Positions 5,069 through 41,382 of a DNA stretch of 64,000 nucleotides are shown one piece after another. Below the pieces are notes generated by a model that was given only the letters and a program-made list of their open reading frames with translations, searched no databases and was not told the origin of the DNA. This DNA is from Sipunculus nudus (taxonomy: Eukaryota; Annelida; Sipuncula; Golfingiida; Sipunculidae): assembly GCA_026874595.1 (NCBI GenBank), contig CM049308.1, forward strand, positions 93,611,624 to 93,675,623, given 5' to 3'. How positions within the stretch are numbered: position 1 is the first letter of the stretch; every line of letters begins with the position of its first letter. The position numbers and the translations under genes were made by a program.

Positions 5069-5237
5069 ACCAATCAAGGAACGGTATATTTATCCCGGGG
5101 CTAATGTTTATTTTAATACTTCCGGTGGGATGGCCTGACAGGTGAAGTGACAGCTCCGAGAAGTTGTTGGGACTGATTTCAAAGCAGAGCTACAAATCCC
5201 CTTGTCAGTATGTGACAGTCCGGGTGGGCGGGGCATA
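5069..5237 (+). promoter_or_regulatory. Probable GPR137 promoter and 5' UTR
   Basis: Within 170 bases of the start codon are an ACCAATCA CCAAT box (5069-5076), a TATATTTA stretch (5085-5092) and an ACTTCCGG ETS-type site (5118-5125). The transcription start is not visible, and an upstream non-coding exon cannot be excluded. Confidence 0.4.
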
Positions 5238-5585
5238 ATGGCAGCAGAGCAGGCTACGATCAGCCCCATCCACCCAGCCATACCCCCGCGGGTTCACTTG
5301 GCTCTGACGGTGGTGTATACGGTGTTGTACAGCGGTCTGTTTCTGGTTGTGTACGTTCAGCTGTGGATGATCTGGTATTACAGACATCGACGGTTCAGTT
5401 ACCAGACGGTCTTTCTGTTCCTCTGTCTGTTGTGGTCAGGATTAAGAACAACACTTTTCTCTTTTTACTTCATGAACTGTGTGTTAGCGAACAATTTACC
5501 GGTTGTTGCCTACTGGTTGTTGTACTGTTTCCCAGTGTGTTTGCAGTTCATCATGCTGTGTTTACTGACGTTGTTTTTTGCACAG
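5238..5585 (+). CDS. GPR137: GPR137 coding exon 1
   Basis: This exon has 116 codons from the first in-frame ATG to FFAQ, followed by donor GTGGGT; it ends in phase 0. The ATG at 5238 has A at -3 and G at +4. The frame is open upstream to a TGA at 5148 but contains no other ATG, so this start is the natural one. It encodes TM1-TM3. Confidence 0.93.
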
Positions 5586-8500
5586 GTGGGTAACACTGAA
5601 TTTATATGTCAGTTTATTTTGTAAGTTTGTAAATACAAAACGCATGAATCTATCAAAACATGTCATGAATGAAACCTGAATTATAATTAAAAAAAAAATA
5701 AATCTAGTTCGGTAACGATATACTAACAGTATCATATGAAGCTGTTACAAAATGTTTGAGGTCTTAAGAAATGATCAGCTGGCACAACCTCTTTAGGCCT
5801 AGATGCTCAACTGGCCAAATAATGAATGGATGTGGTATGTCTGTGCATCTGACCATCCAAAGATAGTTATATTGTTTACACACACAGCAGCATCACAGGA
5901 TCAGCTACCTCATGGCTCATTCAAACGCACATGAAAATGATTCAGACCTTTTTGAAAACCACATATTTTGTACATTACACTATAAAAAAGCTAAACAACT
6001 GCAGTTCACGCATTTTTAGTAAAACAACACAATCATTGGTACCATATAATATACTGTCATATATTCACAGATTAACATCTATTCTTACAACTGAGATGTA
6101 CATAACCCAGTCATTTATTGCATAAATGACTTAAGATATACAGGGAAATCAGTGGTCCATAATTTAATGAGGGTTCCCTATGAGACGCCAGTAATAAAAA
6201 GCTTAAAAGGCTATCTTGCCCCAGTTTGTTTCTCTGAATATGGGTTAGTCGTGACAGCCTCAGAGGAGAAACCTCCATTGGATCAAAGTCATTCAGGCAT
6301 CCTCCTCCACTGGACTCTAGTTTCCCCATAGGTTGTTGACATTGGCTGCAAATGTCACCCTGTAGCCTGCCCTTGACTATATGTAAATTTTTGGTGGCTT
6401 TGGAAGATGCACAAAAAAGATGATATATCCTAATGAGAAATTGACCATCAGCCAGAAGAGTAACATAGCATAAGCTACAGTGGCTGCTGACAACAGTGAA
6501 ACCTGAACCTGGAGGAAATTGTGAATTAGATATCAAGCATATATTTTATTAATATATTAATAGACCTTCTGAACTTGTTTGTCCTGATTAATGTAAATGT
6601 TAATTTAATTAGTTTTACATGGTGATCCTTAGTTTGATCCATTTTAATCCTGTATAATCAGGATAAAACTGGATTAAACCAGACAAAACCGAGTTTTATC
6701 CATTGTCCTGGATTAAAAAAGTTTTATCTGGATAAAACCCAACCCTGTACCTGCACCATGCTCTCCCAGCCTGCCCCGCAATCAAAGAAAAAATCCAGCC
6801 TGCCCCGCAGTTACTATGATTCTTTCAGCCCGCACCAGGCCCGCAAAATTTTCTTTCATCCAACACCCGCCCTGCATGTCTCAAGTTTAAAGCCGGCAAT
6901 TGAGCCCATAAATCAATAAATAATTGAAGCTTTATTCACCAAAGGTGTACATATCAACATTCAACAATAGTTTTTGCAGCACAAACATGGATCAGCTATG
7001 CATGCATATTTAATGTGTGAAACGTCTGATGACTGGAATGATCAGTGTTTTTTAATACATCTTTTAGCAATGATATAAATCTTAGTTCATAAAATATATT
7101 TTTGATAGGACATATTATATTGCTTATTTGAGTTTAATATATAATTGTGGCTGTTTCTTATACCCTAAACATTTTCAAATTTTACAGGTGAAATAATCAG
7201 GCCATGTGAATGATTCTACTTTTAATAATTTGTAAAAAAAAAAGTAAAGGAAATAAATGTGTACCCAAATTACCCTTAGGAATAGAATTGGCTTATAACA
7301 TGCTGAGATATGTTTGCAAGGTCCATTCTGGTCAGTCATAACCTGCTAATTATCTGAAACTGAGACTTATGAAAGGGTGTAGGGAATAAAGAGGGACTGA
7401 TAGATGCGGCTCAAGCTAAAATGGATAGACATGAAGAGAGCAAGGATTTCTCTTGACCCTTTTAACCACATTCTGCTTTGCCAGAGCAGACTCTTAGCCA
7501 CCCATTCAAAAGGAACCCACATTTGGCTTTGTGCAGTTCCAATACAATTAAGTCAACTAAAGAGCCAGCTGTGGTCTCAAAGTGTCTATTACAAGATCAA
7601 AGGTAACTAGAATACGGGTAGTCGACAAGCGACTATGTGTATCCGCCAAAATCAGAGAAAGACAGGTGAAGTGAGACATGGATTGAGTGGCAAGGGGAAA
7701 CACATATCACATAAACATGATTGTAGTTGGCGCCACCTGTTATTTGAACGAGAAACTATCCAAGAAATATACACATGCAAAATTTCATGTGGAAAAGTCA
7801 AACCACTGCAGATATATGAGCGATTTTATCCCACAGCAGAAAACCAGATGGACCCTGTGCAAAAAAGGGCTGCAGGTGGTGCCACATATTTGTGTATGTT
7901 ATAAAGATATCCAAGGGCTACATTGGTGTAAAATTTTTTTTCTGATTGGTCAAACTAGTCTGGAGATATAAGCATTAATGTCTGCAGCGTGAACGTGAAA
8001 GTAGGTGGCTCCATCTGTCAAAAAATCAAGAAAGCTATGCAGGATGTATACGCATGTCGAATTTCAGGTAATTTGGTCAAACCACTGCAGAGATATGAGT
8101 GATTTTAACCCATGGCAGACAAACAGATGGAAGCTGTGCAAAAATGGCTGCAGGTGGCGCCACCATTTTTGTGTATGTTATAAAGCTATCCAAGGGCTAC
8201 ATTTGTGTAAATTTTTTTTCCTGATCGGTCAAACGGTTCCCAAGATATGAGCTTGGATGTCTGCAGCGTTAACGTGAAGGTAGGTGGTGCCACCTGTCAT
8301 AAAATCAGGACGGGTGAAGTGAGACATAATTATAATTGAAGGTGGTGCCACCTGTTATTTGAACGAGAAACTATCCAAGATGTGTACATATGCTAAAATT
8401 CATGTGGAAAAGTCGAACCACTGCAGAGATATGAGTGATTTTAACCCATGGCAGACAAACAGATGGACGCTGTGCAAAAATGGCTGCAGGTGGCGCCACC

Positions 8501-11500
8501 ATTTTTGTGTATGTTATAAAACTATCCAAGGGCTACATTTGTGTAATTTTTTTTCCTGATCGGTCAAACGGTTCCCAAGATATGAGTTTGGATGTCTGCA
8601 GGGTTAACGTGAAGGTAGGTGGCGCCACCTGTCATAAAATCAGGACGGGTGAAGTGAGACATGGATTGAGTGGCATGGGGAAACACACATCACATAAACA
8701 TAATTGTAGGTGGCGCCACCTGTTATTTGAACGAGAAACTATCCAAGATGTGTACATATGCTAAAATTCATGTGGAAAAGTCGAACCACAGCAGAGATAT
8801 GAGTGATTTTAACCCATGGCAGACAAACAGATGGACGCTGTGCAAAAATGGCTGCAGGTGGCGCCACCATTTTTGTGTATGTTATAAAGCTATCCAAGGG
8901 CTACATTTGTGTAATTTTTTTTTCTGATCGGTAAAACGGTTCCCAAGATATGAGCTTGGATGTCTGCAGCGTTAATGTGAAGGTAGGTGGCGCCACCTGT
9001 TATAAAATCAAGAAAGCTATCTAGGCTGTATACGCATGCCAAATTTTAGGTAAATTAGTCAAACCACTGCAGAGATGCAAGTGATTTTAACCCAAGGCAG
9101 ATGAACAGATGGACACTGTGCAAACATGGTTGCAGGTGGCGCCACCTTTTTTGTGTATGTTATAAAGCTATCCCAGGACTACATTTGTATAAAAAAATTT
9201 TCCTGATTGGTCAAACGGTTCCCGAGATATGTGGGTTTATGTGTGGAAACAGACCCACAAACGGACGCTGGGCAGAGAGGAAAGGTCAGAGGTCAAGGTC
9301 ACTTGTTTAGGCACCAGTTCACATGTGACCTGATTATTTGTGTAAGTTTTGGAAAAATCCGTCCAGTAGTCTCAGAGGAGTTCTCCGGAAATGAACGCCG
9401 CGGCGGCGGAACCCGGTCAAAAACATAGTATCCGCAAAACTTCGTTTAGCGGATACAATTATGCCCCTGGTTCACTCCCTGCCATATTACGTAATATGAA
9501 TTATTATTATATATATGCACATGAGCACATAAACTTATATGCTGTTAGTATAAAGGAATGTTATAATTTTTTAAGTGGAAACAGTGATATTTAAAAAAAA
9601 TGGGGAAATACACTAAAAAAATATTTAATTTTCTATTTTAGTTAAGGGTGGATATATGTCCTAGTCTGCACTATTGAGGGTGGGTTTTCATCTGTTGGGC
9701 ATTTGTCAGGATGGGCCTTTGTCCAACACCTGCCCTGACTTGCTTGACCCAACAAATGTAATACATGTTCCCGCTGGCTGAAACACTGAGTGTTGTGGCT
9801 CACAATCAGACCTCTGGTCACGTGGCCTTGTTATGGTAAACAGACACACTAGCTGTCTTCACCAACATGCAGAGCCATAACAAGCTGTTAAACAGTCAAA
9901 TGTGAGGTATTTAGACTGTGTGCCAGGATTGTTTTGCTGGGAAACTTTTGTATAAAACAAAACTGAACTGGTAGTATGAAAGAATAGGAAAAATTGCTCC
10001 TGATTATGTCCCTTTAAACTTCATTACTCCTATTAAATATAAGGTCATATTTCATTTCCACTTTGTTCCTGCTTCATCGACCTGTTAAATATTAAGACTA
10101 TGTTATCATAGCCATGTAGCTATCTCTAGCAAAATAGGAATATGTTGCCAATGGGCCTAACCTCGACCACACTAGAATTAGTATGGTTACGTTTTGTTTA
10201 CAGCCCTCCAGCACAAGGGCCGTGGAATGCATGAGTGCTGTCAGTGTTTTAACAAATTGCAAATTACAGAAGAATACAGGTCACAGACATGGCTTCAGAT
10301 CAGGGTTTGGTTTTTACTTGATAGAAAGTATTTCTTCCCTACTGAGGATAGAAACTTTAGTAAAAATGATAGCAATACTTTTCATCCAGGTCAAAACTGG
10401 TAAGAACTAGGTAGAAATGGCAGAAACCTTTGCTTGTTAGGTCAAAACCTTTTTTTATTTGTACTATCAGTATCAAGTGTTCACTAATTTTCACAGGGCA
10501 TGCCTTTAGAAAATATTGTTTTTTTTATGTACATTTAATCATGAATATAAATGTTATTGTTCATTTAAAACATTAATTTTCCTTAAATATATGTCAGATT
10601 ATCACTTCCCCCACTATATATGCAAAATGAGTATTCAGCACACCATCAGCTGCTATTGGGTAACATTGATAATAATTCTATCCTTAATTTACAGGTTAGG
10701 AATATTAAATTATAAAACACAGGGTTAAGCAAGCAAGATTTCAACATGTCGTGGTAAAATTGTGTCTATCCCAGCCAGTTCAGAAACTTACTAAATTTAC
10801 TTCTAGTAGGGTTATTGTCCCATTTATTGCTTAAGACTTTATTTGTGTGCTAGATATAACTACCTCAGTTGCACTACACTGTGCTGAACACTTTTTTTAG
10901 TTTCAACCCTTTCTACTTTACTGCCTCGCTCAGTCGTTACTCGGGTAATTCCTATTCTAGGAGTAAACCTGCCAGCCCTGTTCAGAACATATTGGTTCAG
11001 GTGATGTTAAGTAACACTTTCTCCATGTATTGAAAAACTTCTGTCGTTTGTAATTGGTTAGTAGTACTTTTATTATTGTAATGAGTTAATAATAGATAGT
11101 AGGCATCAATGGTGTTCATTTTACCATTAATATCATAAACAAATGGGAGATGATTTATATTAATTGTGTTTTTTAGGTGGTTTTCAAGGCCATGGGGCGT
11201 TATGAGCCTTACCAGTACAAGTAAGTATATATAACATTCTAATTTCTAATGCATTGTTTTTATTGTTGGGGTTTATTTTTTTTCTTATGTTTTAATTATT
11301 GCAATAAACAGTTATCAGGCTATAACAGTTTGTAAATTTGATAATGGGCTGCACTGTGTACAGGATAAGCTGTAGTCCTGTGTTTGTGTAAACATCCACT
11401 GTTGAATGAGGAAGTACATGAACAAATAAGTTAACTCAGGCTATGGGTAGGTAGTAATTATCATTAGGGTTTTCAGGTTTTGATAACAATATTGGTGTTT

Positions 11501-14500
11501 GAGAATGCAGGAGTATCTGCTTACATGATATTGCACATGTTTTAAATCTAATCCAGATACTGATCATACCAACATTTATATACAATTTTACATACAGTCT
11601 GTCTTGAACTGTTTAACGAGTAATTAAGGATTCCTACCTACAAGATTTTGTTTCTTCTTGATAATTTCATGGTCTGGCCTGTTTAACTCAGCTGTCTTTA
11701 AATAATTCCATAAACTAGATTTAGATTCCTGCAGAGACCAGACAATTCTATCTTTTACTGTACAGGCAAATTTAGAGCAGACAAGTGAGCTTTTTTGTCA
11801 AGCATACAGATAGTTGTGGCCATAGCAGCATGGCTGTTGAGATGAGGCAATTTGATTTCAAAGTTACATCACAACCACCTCTTTAATGTTTCTTGACCCT
11901 AAGTTCTTTGACCATTGAAGCATTAGATGATTACATTACATTTACAAAGCAGGCAACACATTAAGATTCAGGAGATTACGTGGAAAATGAAAATCTAAAC
12001 TTTCATTCACAGCACAAGTAAATTATTAATTTAAAACAATCCCTAGAGTGCATTTACATTCCTTAAATAATTCTTCATCTTAGTACTGCATTTTAAGTTT
12101 ATCAAGTTTCATTGTATAAAATGCTCATGTAAGTTGGGGAAAAGATCTGAATGAATGATGTTATTGATATCATCAATAACTTCCTGCCTTTTGTAATAGC
12201 TGTAACATATTACCTTGTGGCATATACCTGACACATTACCTGAGAAATATTCCCTTGTGTTAAAAAAGGATATACTTCCCTTATATATTTACCTTGTGTT
12301 ATTACCAGGATGTATTCCTTGTGGTGCATAAATTTCTAGTTTTCCACTGAAAGTCATCTAAAATATAGCAATTGCCTTTTCTCCGTATTGTGTCCAGGCA
12401 TATGGCTGTCACACTGTATACAGAGCACGCATCTCAACTGTTGTGTCCAGGCATATGGCTGTCACACTGTATACAGAGCACGCATCTCAACTGTTGTGTC
12501 CAGGTATATGGCTGTCACACTGTATACAGAGCACACATCTCAACTGTTGTGTCCAGGCATATGGCTGTCACACTGTATACAGAGCACACATCTCAACTGT
12601 TGTGTCCTGGCATATGGCTGTCACACTGTATACAGAGCACACATCTCAACTGTTATGTCCAGGCATATGGCTGTCACACTGTATACAGAGCACACATCTC
12701 AACTGTTGTGTCCAGGCATATGGCTGTCACACTGTATACAGAGCACACATCTCAACTGTTGTGTCCAGGCATATGGCTGTCACACTGTATACAGAGCACA
12801 CATCTCAACTGTTGTGTCCAGGCATATGGCTGTCACACTGTATACAGAGCACACATCTCAACTGTTGTGTCCAGGCATATGGCTGTCATGCTGTATACAG
12901 AGCACACATCTCAACTGTTGTGTCAAGGCATATGGCTGTCACACTGTATACAGAGCACGCATCTCAACTGTTGTGTCCAGGCATATGGTTGTCACACTGT
13001 ATACAGAGCACACATCTCAACTGTTTTGTCCAGGCATATGGCTGTCACACTGTATACAGAGCACACATCTCAACTGTTGTGTCCAGGCATATGGCTGTCA
13101 CACTGTATACAGAGCACACATCTCAACTGTTGCTCCTAGAAATGTAAAATTCAGTGGAAATCTTTTGCAAATCGCCTTAAAAACCAGAATTTAGCTCAAA
13201 ATAACTTCTGTATCCTGCAGTAATCAAGTTTTCTGTCTGCCTGTCCATTACTCCATCCTCCAGGCTGTCTGCCCATCTCTCACTCTGTTTGTGCAGATTA
13301 TCTCAAAAACTGTTCCAGCTATTGCTGTGAAATTTATCTGAAGATTGGTTCCCCATTAGAGGATATTTGATACAAAATTCCAAACCCATCAAAAATCCAA
13401 TATGGCCACCAGACTACAGTCACATTTCCTTTCATGGATTTTCTCAAGAACCTTTTAAGCCATCACTTAACATGGAATTTTAACATGGTGATTGCTTTCT
13501 TTGTGGAAAGTGCACAATGATAATTTTGAACTGTCAGAAATCCAATATGGCCACTAGACAGTAATCATAAATTTCATCTGTATCTCAAGAACCACTCAAG
13601 AAATTGCTCTAAAGTTTTGTTTAGTGATTAATCCCTACGGGAGGATTTTTTTGCTAACAATTTCGGAGAAATTCAAAGATGGGTCACATTGATCTTCTTT
13701 TCAAGGTCTCAGTATATATACCCACAGGATATACTTCTTTCACCACCATGCTGTCAGTATGACCTATATATGCATTTACTTTGGCCTATAGGAGTGTGTC
13801 TGATTCATCTCAGCATCGTGGCCGGCAATGGGCCTCTTGTTAATATGACATTCTGCTTTGCGTTTCAAAAATATGACATATAATTTTGATTTTCATTTTA
13901 GGATCCCGCTGTGTCTGGCGTTTGCTGCAGCTATTGGAGTATTTCTTGTGACTAACATTACCTGTGCTGTGATTGCAAAGATACATGACCAGAATTCCAG
14001 CAGTCCTCCGTTTATTGTTGTGTTAGTGCGAGTGGTAGTCAATGATGTCCTTTTTCTCATCTGTGGCATTTTACTCTCGTTTTGCATTTACAAAGTGACA
14101 AAGCTGACTTCTGCAAGTCTAGCTCTGGAAGCACAGGTAAGATACTTTTATTTAAATCAATAAATATATCATTCATTGAGATTTATGAAGATTTTCACAT
14201 AATGAACTCAAGACAATGAATCAAAACCTGTTATTTAACACACTTGCTGCCAATGACATGTATACCCGTCATTTATTGTATCGCCAGACATAGTTAGGCA
14301 CGGTTGCGCCGCCGCCGCCGCAGAGATTTCTTTTGGACACAATAACTCAAAAAATATTTCAAGGATCTTTTTCAAACTTGACACATTTATAGATATAGGT
14401 GAGAGGAGGAAGCCTATTTAAAAATGGGGTCATGACCTCAACTAGGAGAATGACCTTGACCTTGAATAGATCCATTTTTGGGGAAAATCACACAAATTCT

Positions 14501-17500
14501 TAAATATCTCAAGAAATCTTTCGTGGATTTATCCAAAAATCAAGTCGGACAAAGATCTTGGATAGTGATGTCATGTACCGGAAACTGGTGGTGCCACCTA
14601 GTGTCCTTTTCTTGTTTTTGTGCCGTTTAATACCCCCATCATTGCCACTTGACAGTACTTTTAGCATCACAAGTCAAAAACTGATTGACAGATTTCTTTA
14701 ATATTATGCATGTACATAGGTATGGGTTATGGGATGATGTATATTAAAATTGGGGTCATGACCTTTCCTTTGAGAGTGGCTTTGACCTTGAATATTACCA
14801 TATATGGTGAAAATCACATAAATTCATGAATATCTTAAAAAGGGATGCATGGATTGGTCCAAAAATCAAGTTGACGGAAGATCTTGGATAGTTTTGTCTT
14901 TTGCAGAAGATAGGTGGCGCCACCTGTTGTCCTTTTTTTGTTTTTTGCACCTTTGAATACCCCATCATTGCCACTTGACAGTATATACTGTGAGCATTAT
15001 AAGTCAAACAGTAATGGACAGATTTCTTTCATGTTATGCATGTATATAGATATGGTTTATGGAATGAGGTATATTTAATTTTATTTTTAATTTTAAAATT
15101 TAATTTAATTTAAATTATTTTTTTTTTAATTTAATTTTTTTTTTCAAATGTTGGATATTTTGGAATGCAGTTTATTGATTTAGGGTCATGACCGTGACTA
15201 TGAGAGTGACCTTGACCTTGAATATTCCCATATTTGGTGAAAAACATAAAAACATAAAACCTCATTTGTCTGGCGATACTATGGCACCAGCGGTGCCAAG
15301 AAATGTCTAGTTTTGATTCCCCCAGTGTCAAGCATGGACATACACAATATTTATTGATCAGCAATTTTCAGCAGGAATTCTCATAAATTTATCAATAAAT
15401 TCTTTGCTGATGATAAGTAGTCCATTTATAAAATAGTCTCAAAGTATGAAATTGAATTATTTGTAATGTAGCGATCACTCTTTGTCCGTTGTCCATCGGG
15501 CCGTCCGTCCTAATGAAAAAAATTGATACAAAAGCTCAAGTATCTGAATAACTACTGCATTGATCATCATTATTCTTTGCATGAATATTGACCATGGGAT
15601 GTTCCATCACTTCCTGCAGACTGGTGGCGCCACCTGTATTTTTTCAAATTTTTACAAATTTTTTAGCAAACCTGTGAGCTTATGTGATGGTGTGGCCTCA
15701 TGCGTCATGTGTCGTGCATCGTGCGTTGTCTGTACGTTAACCATAGCTATCTCAAAAATGGCAGGAGCTAGCTTCACCAAATTTTTTGCAAATAATCAGT
15801 CATCCAAAAAACTATATTGGATTTTGTTTATTTTTTTTCTAACTGCATTTTCTTAGATTTTATAGGGAAAAAGCTAAAAAAGCTTAAAAAATCTTCTTCT
15901 CTGAAACTGTCCAGCCAAATTGTCCAATATTTCACAGAAATGATCCCTGGAACAATTTTTCTCAAGTTTGTTTGAATGGTTCCAGTTCGGAGATTTTTGG
16001 CGAAGTTACAGGAGGTTGAACTTTGTTAACTGTGCAAAAAAACATATTAAAATTTAAATCTCAGAAACGGTTGGAGCTATCATCACCAAATATTATGCCA
16101 ATGTTGGTCACATAGATCATATCTGAAATTGAGGTATTGGTGGTGCCACGTGCATCAGCCTTTTTTGTACGGGGTTATCAGTGCCTGTATCACGCTGAGG
16201 GCTACAAAAAACTTCTTCTCTGAAACTACATGGCCAAAATGTTTAATATCGCACAGAAATGATCCTAGGGTAGTGCTTTCTGAAGTTTGTTCAAATGGTC
16301 TCTTTTTAGTGACTTTTGGCTAAGTTAAGGGAAGCTGAATTTAGTCATATGCCATAACAGCCCATTTTGGCTCAGTGTCTACAAAGATCTTCTTCTCAAA
16401 AACCACTGGGTCAAATTCTTAAATCTCACACTTTAATTATCCTCAGATGGTGATAATTCAAGTTTGTTCAAATGGTTTTGGTTCAGTGCTTTTTGGCTGA
16501 GTTACAGGAAGCTGAACTTAGCCAGTTTGCTGTATCTTCCTATATGAGTTATAAACCTGCGAAACGTTTTTCGACTGATGCCACAGAAGCCAGTTTGTTA
16601 ATCATGTATAAGAATAATCCCTAGAATTATTCTTATAATAATTGTCATTAATGGTTCCACATGAATGATTTTTGGCTGAATTATGGAGATTAAATTGAGT
16701 CATTTTACCATATATGTCAGCTGTGTGATGCTGTAACATCTAGCCTGGCAACAGTTTATCAGCAACTATTACATCATGCCACTAGACATTTAGATTTCAG
16801 GTTATCTTTGGATAATATGGACTAGAAAGTTTTTTTAAAAGCTTTTAAAAAATTTAGATTTATGATTTAAGTTATTCATCAAACCAGGCAATGTTACAAT
16901 CATGGATATTCAGCTCTCTCTGTGGCTATATAAAGACAACTGTAAGTGGATTATAAATTCTTGGTATCCCTACTCAACATAATTCAAGAATTTGCCATCA
17001 GTGAGAAATATCTGTATTTAAATTTTGCATTCAGTATGCATCCGTTATAATTTTACATATATTCCTGATTTCTTTTTTTATAAAAAGTCAGCTGAAAAGC
17101 ATTTTGTATTGGGAAAATAAATTTCAAAGTCATTTCAAGTAGGGACCACTTTTGTGTACAGCAGGCAGCACTTGGTTTACCATTGGCAGATTGCCAGTGC
17201 CTGGATGTTGGCTCTTAGCCAAGATGATGTCAGCTCTATAAATAGTTTTGGCACAGTGCCAGGATTGGAAGAAGTGCAGCCAGGTATAGGTCAAAGAGTT
17301 CACTCAGTGCTGTAGCTGCATTCTATTTATAGCTTTGGCAGACTGCTCACTGCATCATATTATTCAGGCACCAAAGTTCAGCCTAAATCTATTTATAGCT
17401 TTGGCAGACTGCCAACTGTGTCAGATTATGCAACAGGTCAAGAGTTCACTCAGTGCAGCCAGGTATAGGTCAAAAGTTCACTCAGTCTAGCCAGGTGCAG

Positions 17501-20500
17501 GTCAAGAGTTCACTCAGTGCAGTAGCTTGAGGCAGCAATTTGTCACAGGTTACTTGGGGGCAACTGCCTTACTCACCTAAGCCTTGTAAGCCCAGTGCAT
17601 CAAACTCTGGGGAAGTTTGATATATTGGACTGATATTTTGACCTGTCTATGCGTCTTTGATGGTATTCTCATTTACAAGACAGGTGGTGCCACCTACATT
17701 GACTTTTGCAGTGTATACGCCTGCTTATTTCTACAAAGGAATTTAATACATCAGCCTAAAATTAGGCATGCTGCGCCCTCATTTTTGGTTGACCTCTGAC
17801 CTTTCTTCTCTGCCCAGTGTCCATTTGTGTGTCTGTTTCCACACATAAACCCACATATCTCAGGAACCATTTGACCGATAAGGCTAAAAATTTTGCACAA
17901 ATGTAGCCCTTGGAAAGCTTTATAGATACACTAAAAATGGTGGGGCCACCTGCAACCATTTTTGCACAGCGTACACCTGTTCATCTGCCTTGGGATAAAA
18001 TCACTCATATCTCAGCAGTGGTTTGACATATCCACCTGACATTTTGCAGGTTTATACATCCTGGAAAGTTTTCTTGATTTTATGACAGGTGGCACCACCT
18101 ACATTCAGGTTTACTCTGCAGACATCCAAGCTTATATCTCAGGAACCATTTGACCGATTGGGTCAAAACTTTGCATGTGTATAGATCTCACATAGCTCTT
18201 CATCATAGGCAAATTCATTAACGTTTAAGGGGCAAACATCATTGCTTATATGCAACACACCTCACTCTATTCCCCAAAGGCTAAAGATTTTGCACAAATG
18301 TAGCCCTTGGAAAGCTTTATAAGATACACTAAAAATGGTGGGGCCACCTGCAACCATTTATGCACAGCATCCATCTGTTCATCTGCTATGGGATAAAATC
18401 ACTCATATCTCAGCAGTGGTTTGACTTTTCTACCTGAAATTGTGCAGGTTTATACATCCTGGATGGCTCTCTTGATTTTATGACAGGTGGCTCCACCTAC
18501 ATTCACATTTACTCTGCAGGCATCCAAGCTCATATCTCGGGAACTGTTTGACCGATTGGGCCAAAATTTTGCTTGTGTATAGATCTCACTTAGCTCTTCA
18601 TCATTATGCCTCACTTCACCTGTCCCACTCTGATTTCTGCGGATACACATAGTCTGGTTTTAAAATGTACTAGTCTGAAACTTGAACATCCATTTTGCTG
18701 AAATCATAATGACTAAGGTAGATATCAAGGACTTAGAGGATCAAAATTAAATTTAAAAAATAAACCTTCATTCATACTCCTAAACTTTGCACAGGTTCGC
18801 ATTAGGCCTGTGGGCCTTGTTTCTCTTTTTTTTCAGACTGCAATGAAACTGTCATCTGTTAACAGGGCACAAAGCATAACCACTGGACCTGGAATCTTCA
18901 AACTTAATATCCAGGAAGTTCCATGAAAAATCTCCCTGAAAATCTGAAATTAGGTCTCTGTTACCCATATCCTTGGAGCTATTGGGCTCCAAAGTACCCC
19001 CAGAATAATGGAAAATTTGATACAAAAGCTCAAGTATCTTAATAACCACTGCATTGATCACCATGATTCTTTGCATGAATATTGATCATGGGATGATCAA
19101 TCACTTCCTTCAGACTGGTGGTGCCACCTGTATTTTTTCCAATTTTTACAATTTTTTTTCTCTTTTTTTTCAGACCTCAATGAAACTGTCATCTGTTAAC
19201 AGGGCACAAATGGTAACCGCGGGACCTAAATTCTTCTAACTTGACATCAAGGGAGGTTCATGAAAAGTCTCTGTGAAAACATGAAATTAGGTCTCTGTTA
19301 CCCATATCCTCCGTAGTTAGTACCCCCAGAATAATGCAAAATTTGATACAAAAGCTCAACTATCTGAATAACTAATGCAGTGATCTCCATGATTTTTTTT
19401 CAGGCATGTTGATCATGGAGTGTTCCATCAGTTCCTGCAAACTGGTAGGGCCACCTGTACTTTTTTCAATTTTTAAGGCATTTTTTCTCTATTTATAAGA
19501 CCTTCAAATGAAGTGGTCATCTGTTAACATGGCACAAACTGTAACTGCTGAACCTAGAATCTTCTTATTAGACATCCAGGGAGACTAATGAAAATTGTCT
19601 TGGAAACCTGAAATTAGGTTTCTGTTACCCATATTCTCTGAGCTATAGGGCTCATAAATACCTCCAAGAATAATTAAAAATTTGATACAAACAAAAGCTC
19701 CAGTATCTGAATAACTCATGCCTTGATAGCCATGATTCTTTGGATATATATTGATCATGGAGTGTTTCATCACTTCCTGCAGACTGGTGGCACTACCTGT
19801 ATTTTTTTCAAATTTTTACTCATTTTTTTTTCCTATTTATTGGACCTTCAAATGTAGTTGACATCTGTCCAAAAGCCCACTGAAACCCATTTCTAAGGAC
19901 TCTTCACAAAATTCATGATTTTTTCGCACTCTGGCAGTCATTTTCCTCATTGTTCAACGTTCCTTGAATTCAGCTGAGCGTCATGGCCCATGGGCCACTT
20001 GTAATGTTATTTGAATTGATGTTTTTTTTTTACACTGGAAAATAACAGTGACATCACAGTTGTGGCTCAGCGTTCAGTATTTTGCATGAATCCATTGAAC
20101 CAGAAAACTCCATCTACACTCCCCCAGGTCCCAGTTTGAACCAGCCACAGTTTCTAAGGCAAAATACTGACAGACATCTCCCTAGACATGCCAACATGCA
20201 TTCTTAATGTCTGAATGACAGGATATTACTGCTGATTAATTCATGGATGCATATAAACAACAATAACCCAGAAGGCGTAATGAAATAGTTCTTATCATAT
20301 TGTTACCTTCATCCTCATTTAACAGACATTGCCACCAAGTGACCATGGACTTATCATAGAAAAGAATCAGTTGTCTAGAGTAAAGCACAGTGTGGACTGA
20401 AACTGTTATGGTCTCTTGTTTGCTTTAGTTCAGATCAGAATTTTTAGTGATGCCATGTCAGAGTGTCACATTGATATCAGGTATTATCATGTTTACACAG

Positions 20501-23500
20501 TATGATTAACCTCTCCCACATTTAATCACCCATTACCCATCAGTATGATATGCTGCATATCAATACCGGTATATCATTTTTAATCATTACCATATATTGT
20601 ATAAGTATTAGGATAGTCCCCAGATCAGACAGACATCAGTATACCTGCATGGAGTTAAGGTCAATGCCTGTACCTGTTTTGGGCTTGTGCAGTTGACCTA
20701 GTTACAGAACATTGTCATATAACATGTAATCAATGGGTCTTGTGTCTGGGATCCAGTGTTTACAATGATCTCTTTTACTTGTATTTAAACATGTATTAAT
20801 AAAGGGTCTTTTCCTTAACAGATTTCTTGGTGTATTTTGGGAGTATTTATACTGATCTGTTTTTATCACAGAATTGACTAAACCTAGTTATGCATCTTTT
20901 AACATATATTAGTAAGTGAGATTCATATTTCATTGTTGAGTGAGCTCTGTCATGCTGTCTCATCTGTGTAGTAATTGTGAGTGACCATGAAAGAGAGGAA
21001 TAATAAACATATATTTAAAATACAGAGGATCACAGAGGAAAAGCCAATAGAAGTTCACAGAACAATAGATATTCACAATACAGAGGATTATAAAACAATA
21101 GATGTTCACAGTACAGAGGATTAAAAAACAATAGATTTTCACAATACAGAGGATGAAAAAAACAATAGATGTTTTCAATACAGAGGATGAAAAAACTATA
21201 GATTTTCACAATACAGAGGATAAAAAAACTAAAGATGTTCACAATACAGAGGATTAAAAAACAATAGATGTTCACAGTACAGAGGATTAAAAAACAATAG
21301 ATGTTCACAGTACAGAGGATTAAAAACTATAGATGTTCACAATATAGAAGATTAAAAAACAATAGATGTTCACAATACAGAGGATTAAAAACTATAGATG
21401 TTCACAATACAGAGAATGACATAACAATAGACATTAACGTATAGATAATAATAGATGGTATCAATGAAAGATCACAAAACAATTTAAATATGTCAAAACT
21501 ACATTGTGATAGTTATGAATCTTTATCTTAATGATAATGAAGGAATATCAGTCCTAAAAGCTAGTAGAGAACTTTGATATCATCATGAATTCACATCATA
21601 TAGTTGTTTGAAATAGTTATAATTTATAGTTTTTTAAATCTTTTCTGACATTGCCTAAAATGTTCAACCAGAACAAAACATCCATTTTGATTCTCATTAA
21701 TACAAAGCAGCTTGGGCCTTTGCAGAATATCTCAGGTGTTTACATGTATCACAGGCAGAGACAGAAAAGAAAAAACAGCCCATGTGAGCATGAGTGTTCT
21801 GGGTATTAAGTATATCACAGGCATTTTGCCAGTGTGAGGACTCAGTAACAGTTACTGGTGAATCATTGCACACAGTGGGATGTCAGGACAAACTGTATGC
21901 CTGGCTGAGTCTCTATAAAGAATAACCTCTCACATGACTGTTAGTGAATTATTAATAGCAGACATGATTATAAGGTCCCTAACTGAAAAGCACTGTCCTA
22001 TAGTGATCACTGTGTCAGTCTGTCCATCCTTCCTTCCTTCCTTCCTTCCGTCGGTCCATCAGTGACGTTTTCTATCGTGTGTGATATCTCAACAAGAACA
22101 TGCTTGATCTTTCTCATATCATGGGGATAATTGGTACTTCTGAGGACTCCATATTTGTCAAATTACAGGTCTGTCAGACAAACAGTGGTGTATAATTGAA
22201 TATAGTGAAGGTTTTCTCTCTGTGCAATGTGTTAGTGACTTGATTGGAAGCCGCTTTTGGTCTCATGAGCAGAGCTTACCTTTAACCATTCAGTTGGTAA
22301 ACTATAACACACACTGATATATTTCCTTTACTTATGTCTGGCAGTCAACTTCATTATTTCTCCCAGCGTGTCTTGGTATGTTAGTATACAAACAATGACA
22401 ATTTGTATCTTCGTATTAACAAGTCTGTGGCCTGTATGCTTTCACGTGCCTGATTTATGAATAATGAACAAGCTGCAAGTGTTCAGAATAATGAACAAGC
22501 TGCAACTGCAACTGTCAATCAAATCCAATGAAGAAAATGTAAACGATACACTGTTCATGTGCCATCTGAACAAGTACACATGTACTGGAAACCAGACTGG
22601 TTTATACGGCTTTATTTGAACGGTCAGATTCTCGATGCCCTCCCAGCAGTGCTAAAAGCTTTGTCTGAAACTGTCACAAGAAGTACTCCAGCAGTCATGT
22701 AAAATGAGAATATGTAAGTGATTTGATTGGTTCAGTTGCCTTATTCACTATTCATGAAATAGATGCCAGAGTGGTTATCTGAATCAAGGTCTGTGAAGCT
22801 GTAGCTGCTACAGATTGGTGGTATGAAGATGCCAATATTTAGAAACAGCTACCCTGATGGAGGTCAGTGCACTTTGAGTGTTTCTGCTTGAAAGTCACAG
22901 TGTGCCAAGAGTGACCATGTGATTTGTTTTTGTTTACAGGGAACCACAGTGTGTCAGGCACTCTGTGCCACTGTACTAATTGTAATCCTGTTTACGTCTC
23001 GGGCTTTGTACAACATCATCGCTGTGTCCAATCCTAATATACTCAACTTTGGCTATAACTGGATCAACGTCTCAGACCAGGTAGGTCATAGTGTATAAAA
23101 AACATATAATCACCATGTTCTTAAAAAATAATGACAGTTTATGATTTCTACACATTTTTTCAATATGAATGACTAAGTACAGTGCCATGTTTTTACAGTA
23201 AGTTTTCAATATAGAAAAATAAACTGATGGTTACTCAACCCTATCAAAATAGGCACATAAAACTACTCTACTAGTGTGTTCTCAGGAACATTAAGAAGTA
23301 GTGACAGATCTATACATATGCATTTTTATGGACACAAAATCAATATTTTGATATAGTTATCCTGTAAATGTATCAGAATTGATATTTTTCCGTATTGTTG
23401 TTAAAAATGAAGTTCGTTGTTGTATCATTGGTTTACCTTGACTGTTTGCAGGCTGACTTTGGTGACCTGAACAAAGGGTTTGCGTACCTGACATTTGGCA

Positions 23501-25516
23501 TTGTGTTGTTCTTATGGGAGTTCCTTCCTACCATGATTGTGGTCATTTTCTTCAAAGTGCGTAGACCAAGAAACTCATCAGTAAGTTCAGTCGGTCATGT
23601 TGCCGTCTTTAGTATTACAGTTATAAAAACAAAGGAAAATGTCACTCAGATGAGCAGGTAAAGTTTACTTTATATTCCTGGGATGTACAGACATGTTTAG
23701 TTATGTAATCATTGATTCTGTTTTGTCCTGTGTCAAACTGTAAACAGAGAAAATCATTAAATAGTGTTAAATATGACACAAGTGAATTTTTATATTGTGG
23801 TTGTAATGTGTTGTTCAGATATACTGTCTTAAAGTATTAGGCAAAACTAATAATTATTGATTATTTTGTATTGGATAACTGAATGTAATTATTGATTATT
23901 TTGCATTAGATAACTGAATGTAATCACTGATTATTTTGTAATAGATATCTAAAGAGCAGTGTGCATTTAAACTTTGGCATTTGAATAATTCTTATCATCA
24001 GTGCACTGTTTAAACCTTAATTTGTTTTGTCAGGAGTTTGCGGCCCTCACATCCCCAGGCTATAACCAGCGGGCATATTTCTTTGACAACCCTCGACGAT
24101 ATGACAGTGAGGATGACCTTGAAAGGTCATACTCATCAAAAGGAAGGTAGGTGATTCCATATGAGACCTGTATATAAAAAACAATCTGTAAATATAATGT
24201 CAATAATCAATATTAAGTAGGGCCCTGCCTCAAAAGCTGTTCTGTGTAGTGATCACCTTGTCCTTCAGGCCTACCTTCCATCCATCCGTCCATCAGTGAG
24301 GCTTTCTTTCTTGGGCAGTATCTTAAAGAAAATATGTTTAATCTTTTTTTCAAAATCACAGGGATGATTGTTGCTTATGAGGGCAAGCCCTTATTGAATA
24401 ACAGACCCACCAGTAATCCAGAGCACAACTGATTTCTCTCATGATCAACACATTTGATCTTTCACAAATTAACAGAGATAATTTGTGTCCATTGGGGCTC
24501 CAGACCTATCAAGTTATAGACCTGCTCTATGGCCAATATGACTGCCATGGCTAGCCAGTGATTTTCTTTTGCTTGTAGTATCTCAATAAGAGTTATTGAA
24601 TTTAATACAGACCCTTCCATAATCAAATATGGCCACCAGAGCACAAGCTGTGTTTTTCTTTATAGAAAATTTGACAGGGGATGTGTGCTCCATTATGGCT
24701 CCCAGGCAAATAATAAAGGCATCCATTCTTGCCCTACCAGCTAGTGCAGGAAGGTACACATGCCTGCCCCTTCTTGCCCTAACTTTTATTGTATGAAAGT
24801 ATCTTTGCCTACCCAAACATACTTCAAACCCTACCATTTCCCCCAACCCATATCTTAGGGTACTATGGCACACCTTTAAAATTAATATTCCAAATATATA
24901 TTACAATTTCAATCCTGGTAATGTTTAGTTGCACATTCCAATTCTTCATTTGTGTCCACAGTTTTGTTTTTGCTAAATTGAACAAGAAGTCTGGATGAAG
25001 TATTTCTTTATTTCACAACTGAAGCTAAATAAATGAAGCGGTTGGTACGCCGGACTTGTGCGCCACCGACATTGGTTCGAATTTTTGATGCTCAGTATTT
25101 TCCTCTGAACAATATGTCTTCGTAACAATATTAATAATCTTGTGCTGATATTACAAATTGACATTTCTGTCTCTGTGGATGCTCTTCACTAAATATTTTA
25201 ATAATCAATGGCTCAGGCAAATACTTTATATTAACATTACCCATTTCAACCAGACTTTCCTTCACCCATAAATGTAGTGATGATGGTAAGATCAGTTCTA
25301 CCTGGGAAAGTCTCAATTGTTTTATCTTAAACATTTGTCAGAGAACACAAATTAATGTCTTTATGTTGTATCTGCAGTGTACCGGAGGCCTCCTCCCCAT
25401 TTTACTCAGCTGGGTTCTCCCCAGAAAACTTCCACAGGGGGACACCATCCATGTATGCTGACCCAGTTACTCCACATGGAAATATCCAACAAGCTCCGTT
25501 TTATGACGGCACATGA
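5238..25516 (+). CDS. GPR137: GPR137-like seven-pass membrane protein (whole gene, 7 coding exons)
   Basis: Joining 5238-5585, 11177-11220, 13902-14136, 22940-23080, 23452-23580, 24034-24146 and 25378-25516 gives 1149 nt, 382 codons plus TGA, with all junctions in phase and all introns GT-AG. The protein has an N-terminal lumenal or extracellular stub and about seven hydrophobic segments (residues about 20-45, 54-78, 88-115, 132-156, 168-194, 213-238, 267-291). A roughly 90-residue hydrophilic tail follows. Recognised family features are SYQTVFLFLCLLW, LRTTLFSFYF, YWLLYCFPVCLQF, VVFKA, a YNW..VSDQAD motif and FFKVRRP after the last segment. Length fits the family (about 400 aa). Vertebrate GPR137 proteins are lysosomal and GPR137B is linked to Rag/mTORC1 control; applying that here is inference. 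Which of the vertebrate paralogues (GPR137, B, C) it matches was not resolved; a single invertebrate pre-duplication orthologue is likely. Confidence 0.93.
6735..7606 (-). repeat. Reverse partial copy of the GC-rich 49030-50527 element, left part
   Basis: The text from about 6740 (CCTGCCCCGC, CAGTTACTATGATTCTTTC) is the reverse complement of sequence around 50370-50470. That just before 7606 (GATCTTGTAATAGACAC on the - strand) matches about 49575-49590. The copy resumes at 9459 after the family B insertion, as reverse complement of about 49510-49566. Confidence 0.6.
7607..9458 (-). mobile_element. Rolling-circle-like element (family B), 1.85 kb, in GPR137 intron 1
   Basis: Read on the - strand it starts TTGTATCCGC (9458 downward), with a hairpin-forming 5' subterminal repeat GTATCCGC/GCGGATAC and a CCG-rich patch. 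It ends with hairpin TAGTCG-CTTGT-CGACTA (7635-7619), 8 nt, then CTAG (7610-7607) followed by T. The body is roughly seven diverged repeats, many centred on AGGTGGCGCCACCT (exact at 8617, 8708, 8985, 9134). The disrupted host repeat continues on both sides (see 6735-7606). Open frames inside are repeat artefacts. Confidence 0.75.
9459..9520 (-). repeat. Continuation of the interrupted GC-rich element copy
   Basis: TTATGCCCCTGGTTCACTCC and CATATTACGTAATAT are a close reverse-complement match to about 49505-49566. This proves the 7607-9458 insertion split one older repeat. Confidence 0.6.
9521..11176 (+). other. GPR137 intron 1, second part
   Basis: AT-rich intron DNA after the family B insertion, up to the acceptor of exon 2. 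No feature was recognised. Confidence 0.5.
11177..11220 (+). CDS. GPR137: GPR137 coding exon 2 (44 nt)
   Basis: This is a short exon between TTTTTTAG and GTAAGT. It encodes VVFKAMGRYEPYQY plus two bases of a split Lys codon. VVFKA directly after FFAQ is the expected family continuation into the loop after TM3. It is too short to be found by length alone; it is supported by phase, splice signals and family sequence. Confidence 0.9.
12391..13132. repeat. 53-bp minisatellite, 14 copies (GPR137 intron 2)
   Basis: The unit TGTCCAGGCATATGGCTGTC plus 33 more bases repeats with few substitutions (period 12391 to 12444 is 53). The unit lacks stop codons in all three forward frames and 53 is not a multiple of three, so all three frames stay open for over 700 bases. 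It lies between exons 2 and 3 and is not a gene. Confidence 0.95.
13200..13690. repeat. Dispersed repeat with AATATGGCCACCAG motif
   Basis: Two half-units share TCTCAAGAAC/AACTGTTCCAG and CCAATATGGCCACCAG (about 13398 and 13548). Similar text is at about 22080-22200, 24290-24680 (intron 6) and 33290-33460. It may be body sequence of family A elements whose ends are lost. Confidence 0.4.
13902..14136 (+). CDS. GPR137: GPR137 coding exon 3
   Basis: The acceptor is CATTTTAG and the donor GTAAGA. The first base completes the split Lys codon, then 78 codons follow (IPLCLAF to LALEAQ), ending in phase 0. It encodes TM4, a loop with possible N-glycosylation sequons (NIT, NSS), and TM5 (VRVVVNDVLFLICG region). 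Confidence 0.92.
14276..15311 (+). mobile_element. Rolling-circle-like element (family G), intact ends
   Basis: The 5' end is A|TTGTATCGCC. A perfect 13-bp subterminal inverted repeat pairs GTATCGCCAGACA (14278-14290) with TGTCTGGCGATAC (15268-15280). A CCG-repeat patch follows the 5' end (about 14308). The 3' end has a hairpin TGGCACC-AGC-GGTGCCA (15283-15299), 8 nt, then CTAG (15308-15311) followed by T. Hairpin plus short spacer plus CTRR between A and T is the Helitron 3' signature. No coding sequence, so it is non-autonomous. One AGGTGGCGCCACCT palindrome is at 14912-14925. Confidence 0.75.
15440..15663 (+). repeat. Upstream part of the split family A-type repeat
   Basis: It contains CTTTGTCCGTTGTCCATCGG, CCGTCCGTCC and then half a unit ending in CTGGTGGCGCCACCTGTATT. 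The text runs directly into family C copy 1 and resumes at 18822. Confidence 0.45.
15664..18821 (+). mobile_element. Family C element copy 1 (about 3.2 kb)
   Basis: It starts TAGCAAACCTGTGAGCTT and ends GCATTAGGCCTGTGGGCCTTGT, with a 3' hairpin AGGCCT..GGGCCT. It interrupts an older repeat in a T-run: the text before 15664 and after 18821 join into one repeat unit seen uninterrupted at about 19130-19180. Copies at 38292 and 61506 share the same internal order. No conserved reading frame was seen, so it looks non-autonomous. The end shape and T|T-type insertion recall Helentrons (inference). Confidence 0.6.
18822..20005 (+). repeat. Family A-type tandem units with 3' terminus, split by family C copy 1
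   Basis: There are about three units of roughly 310-330 bp, each with TTAACAGGGCACAAA, an AAATTAGGTCTCTGTTACCCAT block and CTGGTGGTGCCACCTGT. They end at CAGCTGAGCGTCATGGCCC and GGGCCACTTGT. The upstream part is 15470-15663, which has remnants of GTCCGTCC. Confidence 0.5.
20006..21029 (+). other. GPR137 intron 3, unique stretch
   Basis: AT-rich intron sequence between the family A-type repeat and the 33-bp minisatellite. Nothing recognised. Confidence 0.5.
21030..21436. repeat. 33-bp minisatellite, about 12 copies (GPR137 intron 3)
   Basis: The unit reads ATAGATGTTCACAATACAGA then GGATTAAAAAACA, with small length variants of the A-run. The open frames on the - strand are by-products of the period. 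Confidence 0.9.
22027..22049. repeat. CCTT microsatellite
   Basis: About five to six perfect CTTC/CCTT repeats lie within a remnant of a GTCCGTCC-type repeat (TGTCCATCCTTCC..CGTCGGTCCATC). Confidence 0.85.
22940..23080 (+). CDS. GPR137: GPR137 coding exon 4
   Basis: The acceptor is TGTTTACAG and the donor GTAGGT; the exon has 47 codons and is phase 0 at both ends. It encodes TM6 (CATVLIVILFTSRALYNI) and the conserved YNWINVSDQ segment that leads into the next exon. Confidence 0.92.
23452..23580 (+). CDS. GPR137: GPR137 coding exon 5
   Basis: The acceptor is TTTGCAG and the donor GTAAGT; the exon has 43 codons and is phase 0 at both ends. It completes VSDQ-AD, encodes TM7 (FGIVLFLWEFLPTMIVVIFF) and ends with the basic KVRRPRNSS juxtamembrane stretch. 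Confidence 0.92.
24034..24146 (+). CDS. GPR137: GPR137 coding exon 6
   Basis: The acceptor is TTTTGTCAG and the donor GTAGGT; 37 codons plus two bases. It encodes the first half of the cytoplasmic tail, with an AYFFDNPRRYD stretch and an acidic DSEDDLE patch. YFFD is a landmark I associate with the tail of vertebrate members (from memory, not aligned). Confidence 0.9.
24260..24690. repeat. Dispersed repeat remnant in GPR137 intron 6
   Basis: CCATCCATCCGTCCATCAG, then two half-units with AAATATGGCCACCAG near 24626. Related to 13200-13690 and 33290-33460. Confidence 0.4.
25020..25095 (+). repeat. tRNA-like SINE head or tRNA pseudogene (GPR137 intron 6)
   Basis: GCGGTTGGTACGCCGGA resembles an A-box region and GGTTCGAATT a B-box, about 35 bases apart as in tRNA-derived SINEs. 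No intact cloverleaf was found and no SINE tail identified. Confidence 0.35.
25378..25516 (+). CDS. GPR137: GPR137 coding exon 7 with stop
   Basis: The acceptor is TATCTGCAG. One base completes a split Ser codon, then 45 codons and TGA at 25514-25516. The tail is Pro/Ser-rich (SPFYSAGFSPENF, TPSMYADPVTPHG). The frame is correct only with exon 6 ending two bases into a codon, which supports both boundaries. Confidence 0.9.
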
Positions 25517-40239: not shown

Positions 40240-41163
40240 GCATCAAACTCTGGGTAAGTTTGATGTATTGGCCTGATATTTTGACCTATCTATGCGTCTT
40301 TGACGGTGTTCTCATTTACAAGACAGGTGGTGCCACCTACATTGACTTTTGCAGTGTATGCGCCTGCTTATTTCTACAGAGGAATTTGATACATCAGCGT
40401 ATAATTGGGCATGTTTATACATATCGGGTAGCTTTATTGTGTACAAGACTTGTGGCGCCACCTACAATAATTTTTGCACAGTGAATGGCCCTGCTTATTT
40501 CACAGGAGGGGTTTGACATATCAGTCTGACCTTTGGCATATGTATACATCTCTTCGTTGTATACAAGACTGGTGGCGCCACCTGCAACCATTTTTGCACA
40601 GCGTCCGTCTGTTTGTTTGCCGTGGGATAAAATCACTTATAGCTCGGCAGTGGTTTGACATATCTGCCTAAATTTTGCAGGTTTATACATAGGATAGCTT
40701 TGGATAGCTTTCTGGATTTTGTTGCAGGTGGCGCCACCTACATTTATGTATATGCTGCAGACATTCAGGTTTATATCTGAGGACTGGTTTGACATAGCCC
40801 CCTGAAATTTTGCATGTGTATAAATCTCACATAGCTCTTAATCAACACAAAATTTGTGGTGCCACCTGCCACCATTTTTGCACAGCGTCCTTCTGTTTGT
40901 CTGCTGTAGGATAAAATCACTCATATACAAGTAGTGGTTTGAATTATCTGTCTAAAAGTTTGCAAATGTATAAAACTTGGACAGCTTTCTGGATTTGGTG
41001 GTAGGTGGCGCAACCTACATACACGTTTCAGCTGCAGACATTCAGGCTATTATGCAACACACCACTCTATTTCCACTTGCCACTAAATCAATGCCTCACT
41101 TCACCCGTCCCACTCTGATTTTGACGGATACACGTAGCCGCTTGTTGACTACTCGTATTCTAG
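40240..41163 (+). mobile_element. Family B-type 3' portion inside the second family C copy
   Basis: It contains a run of palindrome-centred units (exact AGGTGGCGCCACCT at 40726-40739) and ends with GGATACACGTAG, hairpin TAGCCG-CTTGT-TGACTA (41135-41151), 8 nt, CTAG (41160-41163), then T. Hairpin loop and spacer length are the same as in the 7607-9458 element. Its 5' boundary is not clear. Confidence 0.55.
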
Positions 41164-41367
41164 TTTTTATTTTGTGTGCACCCATGCCAGAATTTGAGCA
41201 GTGATGTTTGTTTTATTATTTCTTTTTCTAAGTTTTTACTACTTGCATTGTTCATATACATGTTATACATGTTACACATGTTCTTAAAAAGTAATGGTCC
41301 AGCATTGAAGCATTATACCTGGTGTAATCTCATTGCACAGATTCGCATTAGGCCTGTAGGCCTTGTT
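41164..41367 (+). repeat. Direct repeat, first copy (about 205 bp)
   Basis: It begins TTTTTATTTTGTGTGCACCC and ends at GCCTGTAGGCCTTG, matched at 41868-42071 with few differences. It is the terminal part of family C elements. Confidence 0.75.
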
Positions 41368-41382
41368 TAAATTAAATTTAAA

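Follow-up and report, generated by a model that had tools for sequence, protein, structure and literature searches.

Element A, a rolling-circle transposon with TTGTATC and CTAG ends, and its probable placement, with a second family, among HINE-type elements

Element A is a short, protein-less rolling-circle transposon lying in an animal intron. Together with a second family, B, it most probably belongs to the Helentron-associated interspersed elements (HINEs), which are the non-autonomous counterparts of Helentrons or Helitron2, and we put the probability of this reading at roughly 0.85. The anatomy of the elements, together with an empty site for one family B copy that carries no target duplication, supports the rolling-circle, non-autonomous and Helentron-like character proposed in the first-pass annotation of the window, by which we mean the entire 64,000-nt stretch of DNA analysed here.

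Anatomy of element A and of family B

A structural scan places element A, a HINE-type non-autonomous rolling-circle element of 1035 bp, at 14276-15310 on the plus strand. Its 5’ end, TTGTATC preceded by A at 14276, was already seen in the sequence by the first-pass annotation, which extended the element to 15311; the end lies at 15310 and the T at 15311 is flank. Two nucleotides inside the 5’ end sits a subterminal inverted repeat (subTIR), GTATCGCCAGACA (14278-14290), which pairs with its 3’ counterpart, TGTCTGGCGATAC (15267-15279), perfectly over 13 bp, as had been claimed. A CCG microsatellite-like patch, likewise reported before, is present at 14309-14321 and is followed by a central tandem repeat (14418-15081) of about two units, spaced 326-330 bp apart and 77-82% identical, with a partial third unit at 15180-15252. 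The 3’ palindrome TGGCACC-AGC-GGTGCCA (7-bp stem, 3-nt loop; 15282-15298), the 8-nt spacer AGAAATGT and the terminal CTAG (15299-15310; CTAG itself at 15307-15310) complete the element, so that the previously described series of hairpin, 8 nt, CTAG and flanking T is found in full at 15282-15311. Element A has no 5’ inverted repeat (IR) segment, and its own repeat forms no 5’ hairpin. Neither a second copy nor an empty site for element A was found within the 64,000-nt window, and its ends are therefore placed by anatomy and by analogy with the complete family B copy, B1.

Family B follows the same plan with other end sequences and has, in addition, a 5’ inverted repeat able to fold into a hairpin. 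B1 (TTGTATC to CTAG, 1852 bp, defined by the scan and an empty site) occupies 7607-9458; its earlier assignment to family B stands, but the copy lies on the minus strand and has its 5’ end at 9458. On that strand, the 5’ subTIR and the local inverted repeat, a predicted hairpin, occupy 9428-9458, the CCG patch 9396-9409, the 3’ subTIR, TTTTGGCGGATAC, 7639-7651, and the 3’ palindrome TAGTCG-CTTGT-CGACTA with 8 nt and CTAG 7607-7635. The remaining copies are partial and on the plus strand: B2 (52030-52828) shows core repeats behind a decayed TTGTAT 5’ end, with no 3’ end seen; B3 (63480-64000) has a 5’ end and core and runs past the window end; and B4 (41103-41163) is a 3’ end with CTAG before a flanking T. 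B3 and B4 each lie, apparently, within a copy of a further family, C. The IR is complementary to the 5’ subTIR in B1 and B3 and decayed in B2. As noted previously, two 3’ ends, one at 7607 on the minus strand and one at 41163, share the loop CTTGT and have an 8-nt spacer; the stem at 41163 carries mismatches, which is why a scan for perfect stems missed it. An additional family B 3’ part (18606-18654) stops inside the palindrome and was excluded from the 3’ flank count given below.

TTGTATC, the CCG patch, the hairpin with its 8-nt spacer and CTAG are common to A and B, and the subTIRs are similarly placed, 2 nt from the 5’ end in both A and B1 and 31 and 32 nt, respectively, from the 3’ end. 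The first-pass annotation correctly gave family B a shared TTGTAT start (9458 on the minus strand, 52030 and 63480), but its CCG patch does not lie at element A’s distance: it starts at nt 34 in A and at about nt 50, 57 and 51 in B1, B2 and B3, a position similar among the family B copies and different from A, the patch of B3 being interrupted. Beyond the common motifs, homology between A and B scores 24 at the 5’ end (shuffle maximum 25) and 13 at the 3’ end (maximum 18; 200 shuffles each), and a single family comprising both accordingly finds no support at the ends. One core stretch, which includes a palindrome discussed below, is common to both (score 42; maximum 37 in 200 shuffles). In pairing energies calculated with RNA parameters, whereas the process concerns DNA, the 5’ and 3’ subTIRs of the same element reach -24.4 (A) and -19.6 kcal/mol (B1), and swapping partners between A and B1 gives weaker values of -15.8 and -12.5 kcal/mol, although the subTIRs of A and B differ.

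The empty site of B1

A paralogous empty site for B1 lies at 49528-49617 (plus strand). When the flanks of B1 are joined and compared with the window, the match crosses the junction (65 nt, 87.7%, E 2.7e-13). With the 3’ end held fixed, a B1 start at TTGTATC gives 44 of 51 matching bases, and the other 14 starts tested (-6 to +8) give 27-33, including 29 for a start at TC (+5). The empty site lacks TTGTA, which is thus part of the element, and this excludes the canonical TC start for B1. There is no target site duplication. The target sequence is ATT, with a cut point ambiguous by 2 nt: insertion between A and T and insertion between T and T are indistinguishable for B1, because the empty site is matched equally well when the junction is shifted by 0, 1 or 2 nt. 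The base at the 5’ flank is A at all four ends available (A, B1, B2, B3), and the 3’ flank begins with TT at three of three (A, B1, B4). Against the HINE reading, CTAG is typical of canonical Helitrons, and published Helentrons favour TT targets.

Known relatives and alternative readings

Several features of HINEs and Helitron2 recur here: asymmetric inverted repeats in the range of 8-15 bp in A (13 bp) and B1, a palindrome near the 3’ end, a microsatellite and central tandem repeats (common in these elements, not obligatory) and, at the B1 empty site, no target site duplication. As described for Crassostrea gigas, the Cg_HINE elements (Vojvoda Zeljko 2020, PMC7492417), whose link to autonomous partners that paper calls unresolved, combine a subTIR, a microsatellite, satellite-like central repeats, a 3’ subTIR and a 3’ palindrome with lack of target duplication, all as here; their local IR is matched by B and missing from A. 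They differ in having subTIRs that are normally 11-12 bp long, microsatellites of mostly 4-nt motifs and TT or T-rich targets, and the term CTAG is absent from the main text of that paper. In Helitron2 (Bao & Jurka 2013, PMC3627910), the 5’ repeat is reported to lie within 0-2 bp of the 5’ terminus, with a subterminal 3’ repeat upstream of the hairpin, as here, and the 5’ hairpin has its match in B and none in A. The distance from the 3’ repeat to the end, 31-32 nt in A and B1, falls slightly outside the two published ranges, about 20-30 nt in Helitron2 (PMC3627910) and 38-60 nt in mite HINEs, which, like A, are described without an IR (PMC4067079). Given that A and B share the published anatomy of HINEs and Helitron2, including that of the oyster Cg_HINEs, they belong to a known kind. 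The separate lineage proposed by the first-pass annotation is not demonstrated: the plan is the published one (PMC7492417, PMC4067079, PMC3627910), a 5’ TT with a 3’ CTAG is already described for proto-Helentron-Pi (PMC4067079), and Helitron ends mixed with subterminal repeats are on record from oyster (PMC7992393) and Lepidoptera (PMC4344730). Element A is thus an ordinary, if new, member of a kind known from oysters and flies, with a slightly unusual combination of end sequences.

A more specific version of the HINE reading, compatible with it, would assign the elements to an animal proto-Helentron-like lineage with 5’ TT and 3’ CTAG ends and insertion between A and T. This lineage would be moved by a Helitron2-type Rep/helicase that lacks the endonuclease and would stand apart from the HINEs with TT targets. 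This narrower reading is possible, if doubtful. The pair of ends, the A-T insertion and the lack of target duplication resemble those reported for proto-Helentron-Pi of Phytophthora infestans (Thomas 2014, PMC4067079), and both the A that precedes TT at every 5’ end and the apparently different end type of family C (see below) agree with it. However, that element is an oomycete one of about 14 kb that codes for proteins, its description there makes no mention of subTIRs, the ambiguity of the B1 cut leaves the two targets inseparable, and CTAG-ended elements with subterminal repeats are known from oyster (PMC7992393) and Lepidoptera (PMC4344730). Furthermore, none of the 37 stop-to-stop ORFs of at least 90 aa in the window, all compared with Pfam at E 0.01, matches a Rep/helicase, a blank that also counts towards the non-autonomous HINE reading. 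The same scan gave a zf-RVT match below the cut-off, and PcF, T3SS_ExsE and PriX matches in translations of a 53-bp tandem array, one PcF and one ExsE match falling just above the cut-off; we judge these three to be artefacts of repetition.

That the elements derive from canonical Helitron1, with TC as the real start and TTGTA as flank, is very unlikely. Such a TC, preceded by A, does sit 5 nt inside, the 3’ hairpin followed by CTRR and a flanking T is present as in canonical Helitrons, and a TC start is given for two comparable groups with subterminal repeats. The CTAG-ended elements of C. gigas (Penaloza 2021, PMC7992393; subTIRs in 257 of 751, mean length 1,092 bp) are described as non-autonomous, with an upstream palindrome and a preference for insertion between A and T, and the lepidopteran Hel-2 Helitrons (PMC4344730) with a 3’ CTAG and hairpin, subterminal inverted repeats, A/T flanks, a 5’ IR and a microsatellite after the 5’ repeat. 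Besides their TC ends, these groups differ from A and B in that just one of the oyster elements with subTIRs has a microsatellite, and in the (CTGT)n microsatellite and insect hosts of Hel-2. Against a TC start stands the B1 empty site, by which B1, the one copy assessed in this way, lacks the TC terminus of Helitron1; moreover, TTGTAT is common to B1, B2 and B3 behind different flanks.

For element A only, single as it is in the window, one may ask whether the motifs came together by chance around an ordinary tandem repeat; we find this hardly credible. The strict combination of ATTGTAT, a 9-nt subTIR, a perfect 6-bp stem, 6-10 nt and CTAGT occurs twice in the window, as A and as B1, and not once in 60 dinucleotide shuffles. 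With a 13-nt repeat and a 7-bp stem, element A exceeds the minima of the scan; its perfect repeat is placed as in B1 and its spacer has the same 8 nt. Relaxed combinations do arise in shuffles: when every ATT is accepted as a 5’ start, one case is observed for 10-nt repeats (A; B1 is missed) and 18 in 300 shuffles, and for 8-nt repeats the figures are 8 observed and 209 in 300 shuffles. The hairpin with CTAGT is by itself nothing special (three distinct window sites, 15310, 16822 and 7607; shuffle mean 1.15, maximum 5). Inverted repeats and absent coding capacity would also suit a MITE that moves by cut and paste and carries tandem repeats internally, and bivalve pearl was first named a MITE before being moved to the non-autonomous Helentrons (PMC7492417), but asymmetric repeats that are subterminal on the 3’ side and an empty site without duplication make this extremely improbable.

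Relatives were also sought elsewhere. A 16-nt pattern from the 5’ end of element A matched 21 stretches in viral contigs; all 21 extend by just 0-1 nt per side and BLAST of A covers 16-21 nt there, so that we consider them chance matches. BLAST of B against these stretches gave no match, and patterns from the B 3’ end, core and 5’ end gave 0 in viral contigs. The core pattern gave 0 in a collection of genome contigs, and phages (A and B) and plasmids (A alone) no match. As these collections contain no animal genomes as such, the blanks carry little weight. In a literature search to which Repbase and supplements were external, no paper combined TTGTATC with Helitron, and GGTGGCGCCACC occurred solely in a chitinase paper.

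Proposed transposition and significance

From the observed anatomy, pairing potential and B1 empty site we infer a strand transfer, with an order of steps and an autonomous partner located elsewhere. The Rep/helicase of this partner would nick the 5’ TTGTATC end, and rolling-circle replication would pass through the element and halt at its 3’ end, where the 3’ subTIR may pair with the 5’ subTIR beside the terminal palindrome and CTAG. In family B, this pairing would displace the 5’ hairpin, following the proposal of Bao & Jurka for Helitron2 (PMC3627910). The copy would then be inserted at an ATT target, which would not be duplicated. For Fusarium Helitrons, joined ends have been reported (PMC5148889).

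A palindrome, AGGTGGCGCCACCT, is found repeatedly in several of the window’s element families. Allowing 3 mismatches at most, it has 45 sites (shuffle mean 0.9, maximum 5 in 50), many of which are copies within tandem repeats and hence not independent; with up to 1 mismatch it has 27, compared with 2 across all 50 shuffles together. The alignment of these sites was chosen by palindrome match, so that conservation there is not evidence in itself; the counts are. The ends of family C, also present in the window, seem to be of another type, without CTAG. It is conceivable, though rather improbable, that the families starting with TTGTATC and finishing with CTAG make up a proto-Helentron-like group in animals that links the Helitron and Helentron types of end, in which the core palindrome, common to other HINE-like families of the window, acts as a cis signal amplifying or terminating the core repeats.

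Under the HINE reading, two families with CTAG ends are now documented, and for one of them an empty site rules out the TC start. By implication, Helitron finders based on TC could set the 5’ end of such elements 5 nt off. Should an autonomous partner sharing these ends be found, it would reveal which Rep/helicase moves the CTAG-ended HINEs of animals.

Empty site and ends of a family B copy

The best new evidence comes from an empty site of B1, the sole complete copy of family B (minus strand, 9458-7607). When joined, the flanks of B1 align to 49528-49592 across the junction, and then again to 49602-49617. The filled ends read GGGGCATAA next to TTGTATCC and TATTCTAG next to TTACCTTTG, while the empty copy of the target reads GGGCACGATTACCTTTG. 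With the 3' end fixed, 44 of 51 bases of the empty site agree with a TTGTATC start, as against 27-33 for the other 14 start shifts (-6 to +8); a TC start agrees at 29. The first-pass annotation had named target duplications as an argument against a rolling-circle-like element, and none is present here. Sliding the ends together by 0, 1 or 2 nt gives an equal fit, so that insertion between A and T, between T and T, or one step further is indistinguishable for B1. The 5' end of B3 (63480) agrees with a copy of family C, a further HINE-like family, that is uninterrupted near 40590, although the last 15 nt align less well. For element A, joined flanks retrieved no empty site in the window.

Anatomy and setting of element A

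The first-pass annotation had placed element A correctly but made it one base too long: it spans 14276-15310 (+), followed by T. Its initial TT precedes the 13-bp subterminal inverted repeat (subTIR) GTATCGCCAGACA and a CCG patch (14309-14321). The core holds two repeat units, 326-330 bp apart and 77-82% identical, plus a partial third, and an AT-rich tract leads to the 3' subTIR (15267-15279), the exact reverse complement of the first. The element is completed by a palindrome (7-bp stem), an 8-nt spacer and CTAG, and the perfect repeat, CCG patch and 3' terminus described from the sequence were all recovered. Element A is single-copy within the window. Its subTIR has no local inverted partner, whereas those of B1 and B3 have one and their 5' subTIRs are predicted to form hairpins; the B2 counterpart (52030) has decayed. 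B1 and B4 (41163) do share the 3' loop CTTGT and 8-nt spacer, as had been proposed, with mismatches in the B4 stem. A strict structural scan of the window recovered only A and B1, with none in 60 dinucleotide shuffles. By itself, a hairpin plus CTAGT does not exceed chance, with 3 sites against a mean of 1.15 and a maximum of 5 in shuffles, and relaxed whole-element scans also find matches in shuffles.

Element A probably lies in an intron, because a splice-donor-like GTAAG, noted by eye, follows base 14136 in the upstream exon-like ORF 13849-14163. This ORF and those at 5151-5624 and 23383-23661 (all +) have the appearance of exons from a single membrane protein, which may resemble GPR137; a Pfam search matched none of the three, and PDB searches with 5151-5624 and 13849-14163 gave no convincing match. 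A 53-bp tandem array (12388-13132; 14 copies) is open in three plus-strand frames, and Pfam matches in its translations look spurious. A 46-bp array (55354-59268; ~85 copies) is GC-rich relative to the window. ORF 42446-42796, with a weak zf-RVT match below cut-off, may be what is left of an element with a reverse transcriptase.

Repeat pairing and neighbouring elements

Calculated with RNA parameters and for two families only, the 5' and 3' subTIRs pair at -24.4 kcal/mol in A and -19.6 kcal/mol in B1, compared with -15.8 and -12.5 kcal/mol when partners are exchanged. Each family therefore remains self-complementary although the letters of the two differ, and this speaks for a function of pairing.

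Judged by sequence, other elements of this type surround A and B. Family C occupies approximately 15665-18830, 38294-41375 and 61517-63480, has subTIRs unlike those of A and B, carries a GTCGT-rich, microsatellite-like tract (by eye) and contains nested family B sequence. Its 5' subTIR AGCGAACCTGTG at 38294, found with one mismatch at 15665, is predicted to pair with 3' repeats at 41336 (-15.1 kcal/mol) and 18790 (-21.8 kcal/mol); with few changes, the palindrome region AGGCCTGTAGGCCT is common to three 3' ends (18790, 41336 and 42038). Two stretches resembling the family C tail (41164-41370 and 41869-42072) are 94% identical, and both start at the base that follows the family B CTAG in the first copy; a truncated core repeat, not a CTAG end, precedes the second.

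With at most 3 mismatches, the palindrome AGGTGGCGCCACCT occurs at 45 sites, against a mean of 0.9 and a maximum of 5 over 50 shuffles. Stretches that we labelled A, B or C hold 38 of them, and three of the other seven lie in the 18842-19868 array. The palindrome recurs at 7725-9134, 14586, 14912, 15622, 16138-19785, 38770-41854, 52500-52774, 61911, 63798 and 63947. Several element families carry it in their core repeats and bodies, between otherwise dissimilar flanks, which may reflect a common cis signal or common descent.

Relationship to published elements

Helitron2 elements have two hairpins and asymmetric repeats of 8-15 bp, which lie 0-2 bp inside the 5' end and ~20-30 bp inside the 3' end (PMC3627910). 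In mite HINEs, non-autonomous forms of Helentrons, and fly DINE-1, subTIRs accompany a 3' palindrome, and some of these elements also have microsatellites and tandem repeats; the mite HINEs are described as lacking the local inverted repeat, with 3' subTIRs 38-60 bp from the end (PMC4067079). The distances in A (31 nt) and B1 (32 nt) fall between these two ranges. Proto-Helentron-Pi combines 5' TT, 3' CTAG and targets between A and T (PMC4067079), and oyster Cg_HINEs have satellite-like repeats flanked by such subTIR and palindrome ends (PMC7492417). By their resemblance to these oyster HINEs, the repeats of the window look animal and probably molluscan. SubTIRs are also reported for 257 of 751 Pacific oyster elements with TC and CTAG ends, regarded by the authors as possible intermediates (PMC7992393), and lepidopteran Hel-2 unites TC and CTAG ends, a 5' inverted repeat, subterminal repeats and a microsatellite (PMC4344730). 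The structures of A and B fit this set of Helitron2, HINE, Proto-Helentron-Pi, oyster and Hel-2 elements, and we file them as HINE-type (Helitron2) elements, which would make them new families of a kind already known.
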